From Serripes groenlandicus (lineage: Eukaryota; Mollusca; Bivalvia; Cardiida; Cardiidae): 64,000 bases of DNA. Position numbers and translations under genes: made by a program. The stretch is taken from NCBI GenBank assembly GCA_031761405.1, contig JASEVX010000007.1:63793573-63857572 (forward strand), read 5' to 3'. This document shows, one piece after another, positions 11,244-51,194 of the stretch. The notes below the pieces were generated by a model. The model was not told where the DNA came from and ran no database searches. It saw nothing but the letters and a program-made list of their open reading frames with translations. Position 1 is the stretch's first letter, and every line of letters starts with the position of its first letter.

Positions 11244-11409
11244 CTAAAGTTTACAACTATCATCAATATATTCACTGCTTGAAATGTACACAGGGTTTTC
11301 CTGGGTTTTTGTATCAATAGGCGTCGTACACCATTCTTCCAGCTCATTGTGTGTACTACTATTTATTGGGAAATCGACTTCACCACCACTTGAAAATTGT
11401 TTCTGTTTT
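11244..11409 (-). CDS. EGF gene exon 10: cytoplasmic tail with NPVY and stop codon
   Basis: The acceptor is a T-rich tract ending acag before 11409, and the stop is TAG at 11246-11244. One base completes Arg after the transmembrane exon (QRR-R), then 54 residues: KQKQFSSGGEVDF, later TQENPVYISSSEYIDDS and the end CKL. NPxY is the motif bound by PTB domains and clathrin adaptors; a second Tyr lies in an acidic setting. The exon is 9.1 kb downstream of exon 9, but the phase match, the basic start and the in-frame stop support it. Confidence 0.7.

Positions 11410-51194: not shown

Follow-up and report, generated by a model that had tools for sequence, protein, structure and literature searches.

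Delta and Jagged are defined by the combination of an MNNL and a DSL domain (PMC5356439), and known ligands are described as contacting Notch through C2:EGF12 (site 1) and DSL:EGF11 (site 2) (PMC5538765). Reshuffling of the ligand-family domains is seen also in bivalve genes that carry DSL or DSL repeats without EGF, a type reported as found only in bivalves (PMC8166818), but these keep the DSL and lack the EGF, which is the reverse of the gene analysed here. Four choanoflagellate species carry one of the two domains (MNNL or DSL), the source not stating which one (PMC6040629). In the portions of the literature covered by our search, no paper was recognisable as the description of an animal protein that has MNNL and EGF domains and lacks a DSL. 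DLK1 is a vertebrate protein with few EGFs and is not known to have an MNNL head. It is presented as a Delta relative without DSL (PMC10468206), a trait that it shares with the gene studied here.

The window, i.e. the whole 64,000-nt stretch of DNA that was analysed (0 N), carries a gene that resembles Delta and Jagged/Serrate in its signal peptide, in the six MNNL/C2 cysteines found in order, in a phase-0 intron placed one residue after a conserved Trp, in its EGF repeats and in its single transmembrane segment. It differs from them by the lack of a detectable DSL, by a stretch after FxVC that is not kept, by a C-terminus that reads DDSCKL and not ATEV, and by the number of its EGFs (~40 compared to the 7, 8 or 16 given for Delta/Jagged/Serrate (PMC8490980)). 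Since the class is defined by MNNL plus DSL (PMC5356439), the window gene is a descendant and not a member of it. We assign a probability of about 0.8 to its descent from Notch ligands with loss of the DSL. The first-pass annotation had proposed that a long, DSL-less EGF membrane protein carries the N-terminus of a Notch ligand, a proposal that is now backed by the gene structure, by paralogues and by a search of intron 5 in which no DSL was found.

When the ten exons were spliced as proposed (minus strand, 51194-11244; Table 1), all junctions were GT/AG and in phase, giving one frame of 2110 residues with a single terminal stop. The predicted protein comprises, in this order, a signal peptide, a Cys-rich head (exons 2-5), an EGF array with a Ser/Thr-rich stalk, the membrane-proximal exons, a transmembrane helix and a tail with an NPVY sequence. 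Each of the nine donors ranks among the best 0.1-9.4% of all GT in the window; eight of the nine acceptors are among the best 6% of all window AG and that of exon 7 only among the best 14%. The latter, as modelled (CCAG before 22955), reads CCAA in the tandem copy P32 (see below), while an AG located 9 bases further, before 22946, is found in both the window and P32 and preserves the frame. For exon 7, a start at 22946 is the more likely one because this in-frame AG is common to the two copies and the modelled acceptor is not; the predicted protein would then have 2107 residues. A signal peptide and one transmembrane helix are predicted, as in DSL Notch ligands: only two stretches have a hydropathy above 1.6 over 19 residues, and they lie within residues 1-22 and 2026-2056. 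The transmembrane helix and the NPVY tail announced earlier were both recovered. Its NPVY motif is suggestive of adaptor binding or of internalisation. No domain of the gene was returned when the minus strand was scanned with Pfam in three frames (51.4-29.0 kb and 24.0-16.0 kb). An additional exon reading TRTPVVQWG at ~21.2 kb was considered and rejected: the junction of exons 8 and 9 is in phase in its absence, and each of these two exons has a match in the copy.

Table 1. Predicted features of the window gene (window positions; the slash marks a splice junction)
Feature	Position	Strand	Content
Exon 1	51135..51194	-	Start codon and predicted signal peptide MDTLFKICIGLILLFFVIEQ; hydropathy peak in residues 1-22; ends in phase 0
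Exon 2	44528..44685	-	N-terminal half of MNNL/C2-like domain, CC...C...C...FHVC; ends in phase 2
Exon 3	37800..37911	-	From sixth MNNL Cys to conserved Trp; 112 nt; phase 2 to 0
Exon 4	36951..37108	-	C-terminal half of C2-like domain; 158 nt; phase 0 to 2
Exon 5	36602..36636	-	Putative shrunken DSL exon, LTYRYKIYKTP/G; 35 nt; 0 Cys; phase 2 to 1
Exon 6	23823..29048	-	Half EGF (C3-C6), 40 complete EGFs, half EGF (C1-C4), Ser/Thr-rich stalk; 5.2 kb
Exon 7	22805..22955	-	Membrane-proximal, without known domain; alternative start 22946
Exon 8	21618..21789	-	Membrane-proximal, one Cys
Exon 9	20538..20632	-	Predicted transmembrane helix; hydropathy 3.4 across 19 residues
Exon 10	11244..11409	-	Predicted cytoplasmic tail, NPVY, C-terminal DDSCKL
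Intron 5	29049..36601	-	No skipped DSL exon found in open stretches of at least 15 aa

The CC...C...C...FxVC spacing that had drawn attention to the head was located in exon 2, and the six MNNL cysteines are all present, in order, and preserved in both paralogues P32 and P33. Among the Pfam families, MNNL fits the head best, but its scores (14.8 bits with the entire head, 17.1 bits with the first part) stay under the cut-off of 22.5 bits. The chitin-binding family CBM_14 matches the head with 15.1 and 15.9 bits, its E-values being slightly worse than those of MNNL. An HMM built from seven PDB ligands scores the head at 7.6 bits, a value that was equalled or exceeded in 3 of 2000 full shuffles and reached in 112 of 2000 shuffles that retained the cysteines (shuffles unreported by HMMER were scored as lower than the head). 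End-to-end alignment gave z 5.95 for the N-terminal half of the head (0/300 shuffles; z 2.47 and 2/300 with cysteines kept) and z 1.1 for its C-terminal half (36/300; z 0.8 and 63/300 with the Trp kept). The W...G...T..L stretch singled out previously is accordingly weak by sequence, but a phase-0 intron does follow its Trp at one residue, an arrangement shared with four other MNNL genes of the same genome. Exons 2-3 were compared also with an 11-member profile, composed of the seven PDB ligands and four members from the same genome, and reached z 5.6 (0/300), 3.2 with cysteines kept (0/300) and 1.9 with cysteines and Trp kept (11/300). Because locus L005 of this genome, left out of the profile, attains z 13.7, 10.2 and 8.9 in the same tests, the window head is, as judged by these alignments, far more diverged than that of L005. 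A PDB search with the head returned Notch EGF chains and one antibody, and no Notch ligand. Marginal by sequence alone, the assignment of the head to MNNL/C2 draws on the cysteine order, the shuffle tests and the intron map, which together point to a weakly conserved domain of this type. Directly after FxVC the window gene reads VLTNSRSHTC where the seven PDB ligands have LK[EH][YF]Q and then TPV[LI]G or similar. In our own mapping, this stretch would be the Notch-contact loop of C2. The ligand sequence is not preserved in L005 or L006 either, and L002 and L003, with their full DSL, show partial departures from it.

A Pfam MNNL search of the genome to which the window belongs (1.76 Gb) found at least six other loci above cut-off (L001-L006), a number to be taken as a lower bound since the same search missed the window gene and its two close copies. 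An exon ends one residue after the conserved Trp, in phase 0, in L001 (SWT), L002 (SWP), L003 (LWP), L005 (RWP) and the window gene (DWS); the exon with the conserved Trp was not found in L006. Human JAG1 presumably has an intron at this same place, if the exon sizes that we assume for it hold; their sum agrees with the start of exon 6. That exon is described as beginning at residue 252 (PMC2725086). The MNNL exon of L005 (C1:251.66 Mb), which ends in phase 2, is followed by exons of 133 nt (phase 2 to 0), 149 nt (0 to 2) and 137 nt (2 to 1), and the series of head intron phases (2, 0, 2, 1) is identical in the window gene. L005 is, to judge from its domains, a real ligand-type protein because its spliced head scores 60.7 bits with MNNL and 59.2 bits with DSL. 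It is like the window gene also in having a long multi-EGF exon and a candidate transmembrane segment downstream, and unlike it in its full DSL exon, its clean MNNL and its 17 complete EGFs by pattern, spread over two open frames. This intron map is stronger proof of the putative Notch-ligand descent than the head sequence, and it is what decides the question in our reading.

Each of the six other MNNL loci has a same-strand DSL match further downstream, with 89 bits for L001 (42 kb away), 90 for L002, 80 for L003, 30 for L004 (partial, tandem), 56 for L005 and 23 for L006. The phases indicate that the match belongs to the same gene in L005, and the same is presumed for L001-L004 and L006. The nine MNNL-type loci are thus distributed in six with a DSL match, two without and one (P33) in which the contig ends first. 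L004 has tandem DSL matches with Thr-rich linkers and L006 a Thr-rich frame after its DSL exon; no EGF array was seen within 40 kb at these two loci, which resemble the bivalve DSL genes without EGF mentioned above, a likeness that makes a bivalve source of the DNA probable.

In L005 and L006, the DSL exon (137 and 122 nt, respectively) begins with eight residues before the first DSL Cys and ends in P/G in phase 1. Exon 5 of the window gene likewise has eight residues (LTYRYKIY), then a Lys at the position of the first DSL Cys, and then TP/G in phase 1. Since the phases are the same and both ends match those of the L005 and L006 DSL exons, exon 5 is most simply explained as a DSL exon emptied in frame of its Cys-bearing middle. 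The YRYKIY strand, attributed before to the MNNL/C2 domain, is indeed encoded by exon 5, but its exon would be the shrunken DSL exon. A skipped DSL exon between 36602 and 29048, which would contradict a protein devoid of DSL, was searched for and not found: the best score of the open stretches of at least 15 aa in intron 5 is 5.4 bits, compared to up to 7.7 bits in 20 shuffles of the intron. In control searches, six left-out known DSLs scored 74-95 bits and their halves 29-47 bits. Over the whole minus strand of the window (open stretches of at least 15 aa) the maximum, 9.1 bits, falls outside the gene, at 61.2 kb; a profile enlarged with DSLs from the same genome gave at most 7.5 bits over that strand, and Pfam returned no DSL match. 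The six-Cys DSL domain of canonical Notch ligands appears to be missing from the predicted product.

With exon 2 as query, the genome search returned the window and two further places, P32 (66% identity) and P33 (67%). P32 (C1407:63.862-63.899 Mb) lies on the same strand ~60 kb away, and P33 on an unplaced contig. Exons 2, 3, 4, 5 and the start of exon 6 were found in P32 with matching splice sites; exons 2-4 were found in P33, followed by the contig end. Exon 3 is preserved in both copies, and the protein identity in exon 4 is 75% for P32 and 69% for P33. Exon 5 of P32 has one synonymous change and encodes an identical protein, and no DSL was found between its exons 5 and 6. Exons 7-10 have a second set of matches, likewise in order, located below P32, with 80-89% identity (exon 8, 89%; exon 9, 80%; exon 10, 84%; none of these three with an internal stop). 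The exon 7 match contained two stops, but no stop occurs in the frame of the exon itself as far as the preserved donor; window and copy differ there by four synonymous changes and one nonsynonymous change (counted by eye). P32 is like the window gene in the order of its exons and in its short exon 5, and unlike it in the sequence of exon 2 and in its C2 loops, which are variable (exon 6 was compared in part). Because P32 keeps the short exon 5 and has matches to exons 7-10, the loss of the DSL is older than the tandem duplication, and the architecture looks like a fixed form rather than an annotation slip. A ~4-kb repeat in intron 5 of the window gene (29744-33771) is absent at the matching place of P32. 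Its inverted copy in intron 9 (17331-20322) shows a 95-100% match in 17 of 19 pieces, and the repeat has a PHD-finger-like reading frame with CxC...C, recognised by eye.

The EGF pattern finds 40 complete repeats, preceded by a half repeat (cysteines 3-6) and followed by another (cysteines 1-4), so that the previous count of 42 holds if both halves are included. By motif, 34 of the 40 are of the calcium-binding type, and the array is predicted to consist of EGF repeats as in canonical Notch ligands. The interruption within a repeat at both ends of the array (23823-29048) leaves odd cysteines unless the halves pair alone. The four cysteines described as a separate module before the array are present, but the module was over-read: the start of exon 6 is best read as the C3-C6 half of an EGF, a rump of DSL being also possible. 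It matches Pfam hEGF with 17.9 bits (below the hEGF cut-off) and has no DSL match; the reading as a DSL rump (TC...IC..GW...C) was set aside as the EGF C3-C6 spacing fits better. Its counterpart in P32 scores 6.1 bits with the last 13 DSL positions, where EGF and DSL resemble each other. The SEA-like domain assigned earlier to the membrane-proximal region was not recovered: no SEA appears among Pfam matches to E 10, and a PDB search returned one unrelated phage chain only (E 1.5). No Pfam match to VWC, a Jagged feature, was obtained in exons 7-10.

Whole-head dN/dS is 0.89 relative to P32 and 1.19 relative to P33, while the first 57 codons of exon 6 give 0.35 relative to P32 (p 0.019). Within exon 2, dN/dS of the C2 framework is ~0.5 or less (dN and dS of 0.06 and 0.12, 0.08 and 0.18, 0.11 and 0.34 in the three pairs) and exceeds 2 in the two loops found between the first strand and FHVC (0.47/0.07, 0.72/0.18 and 0.58/0.28). 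Cysteines left out, the window gene and P32 differ at 15 of 21 positions in the loops and at 4 of 26 in the framework. One-sided tests of the loops give p 0.027, 0.038 and 0.21, based on small numbers, on pairs that are not independent and on loop limits set after seeing the alignment; the tests on the whole exon are not significant (p 0.29, 0.47). The apical beta1-2 and beta5-6 loops are described as the variable, phospholipid-binding part of Drosophila and mammalian ligands (PMC8490980), and in our own reading the fast loops of exon 2 may be these apical loops.

In the favoured reading, the ancestor would have been an MNNL-DSL-EGF membrane protein like L005. Its DSL exon would have lost the Cys-bearing middle in frame, leaving 11 whole codons with the same splice phases; the EGF array would have grown to ~40 repeats within one exon, and the gene would then have been duplicated in tandem, the DSL not being regained. 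The C2-like head may be displayed far from the cell on a rod of calcium-binding-type EGFs, where its variable loops could contact a partner or the membrane, with the NPVY tail possibly serving internalisation or signalling. Ordinary Notch activation in trans would not be expected since the DSL:EGF11 site is gone and the presumed C2-loop site is not kept. The odds that the protein acts in surface recognition or adhesion outside the Notch pathway seem to us about even. A more tentative proposal is that C2, freed from Notch, became a fast-evolving recognition head with conserved strands and apical loops under diversifying selection, borne by the 40-EGF rod in tandem copies and used for self, gamete or microbe recognition. 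The gene would be a ligand caught leaving the Notch pathway with the emptied exon still in place. A natural protein with C2 but no DSL, together with a DSL-bearing sister built on the same exon scaffold, offers a test of C2 alone.

The main rival to this reading, rather unlikely in our view, is that the protein still acts on Notch as a cis-inhibitor or decoy, its head and EGF rod binding Notch weakly in the same membrane, as proposed for DLK1 and found for DLL3 in cell assays. Origin from a Notch ligand would suit such a function, and so would the precedent of DLK1 as a Delta relative lacking DSL, although the inhibition of Notch by DLK1 is itself presented as unsettled (PMC10468206). Fast loops are unexpected in a protein facing a conserved receptor. 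The missing LK[EH][YF]Q stretch argues in the same direction but weakly, considering that DSL-bearing L002 and L003 likewise match it only partly. Decay of a ligand gene, with the DSL loss as first step of pseudogenisation, would account for a head dN/dS near 1 and appears improbable: P32 exons 2-5 and P33 exons 2-4 have no stop or frame-breaking indel, their length differences being whole codons, and the six MNNL cysteines are kept. The identical exon 5 protein, the constraint on the first codons of exon 6, the predominance of synonymous changes in exon 7 without any stop, and the contrast between C2 framework and loops likewise speak against decay.

It is still less probable that a DSL exon is present and was missed for being too divergent, too short or spliced from beyond the searched stretch. 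The head is far diverged and a DSL could be likewise, introns 1, 2 and 5 are long (6-8 kb), the window has many repeats and the scans covered open stretches of at least 15 aa only. However, the window has no N, and the divergent DSLs of L005 and L006 still reach their 56 and 23 bits with a vertebrate/fly profile, far from the maxima of intron 5 and of the minus strand (5.4 and 9.1). Moreover, exon 6 of P32 is likewise preceded by the short exon, with no DSL found between them, and exon 5 already sits in the place of the DSL exon. Least credible of all is a head that is not MNNL but another six-Cys extracellular module, for example chitin-binding type 2; the CBM_14 scores about equal those of MNNL, but this assignment leaves the N-terminal strand, the intron after the Trp, the phase series shared with L005 and the DSL-exon remnant unexplained.

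Other features were noted in the window. A minus-strand frame at 42850-42987 matches Pfam PF21081 (viral capping methyltransferase) with 24.6 bits (cut-off 20.7) and adjoins a repeat found also at 60.4-60.6 kb and on contig C1623; this match could be due to chance or be an old viral trace. The segments 45.4-46.6 kb and 51.4-52.2 kb contain repeats reading as YQKYSVYYMCQ and similar, and the end of the window (60001-64000) has a GC skew of 0.45 with a simple-repeat stretch that reads as PITTPLSSYHY repeats.
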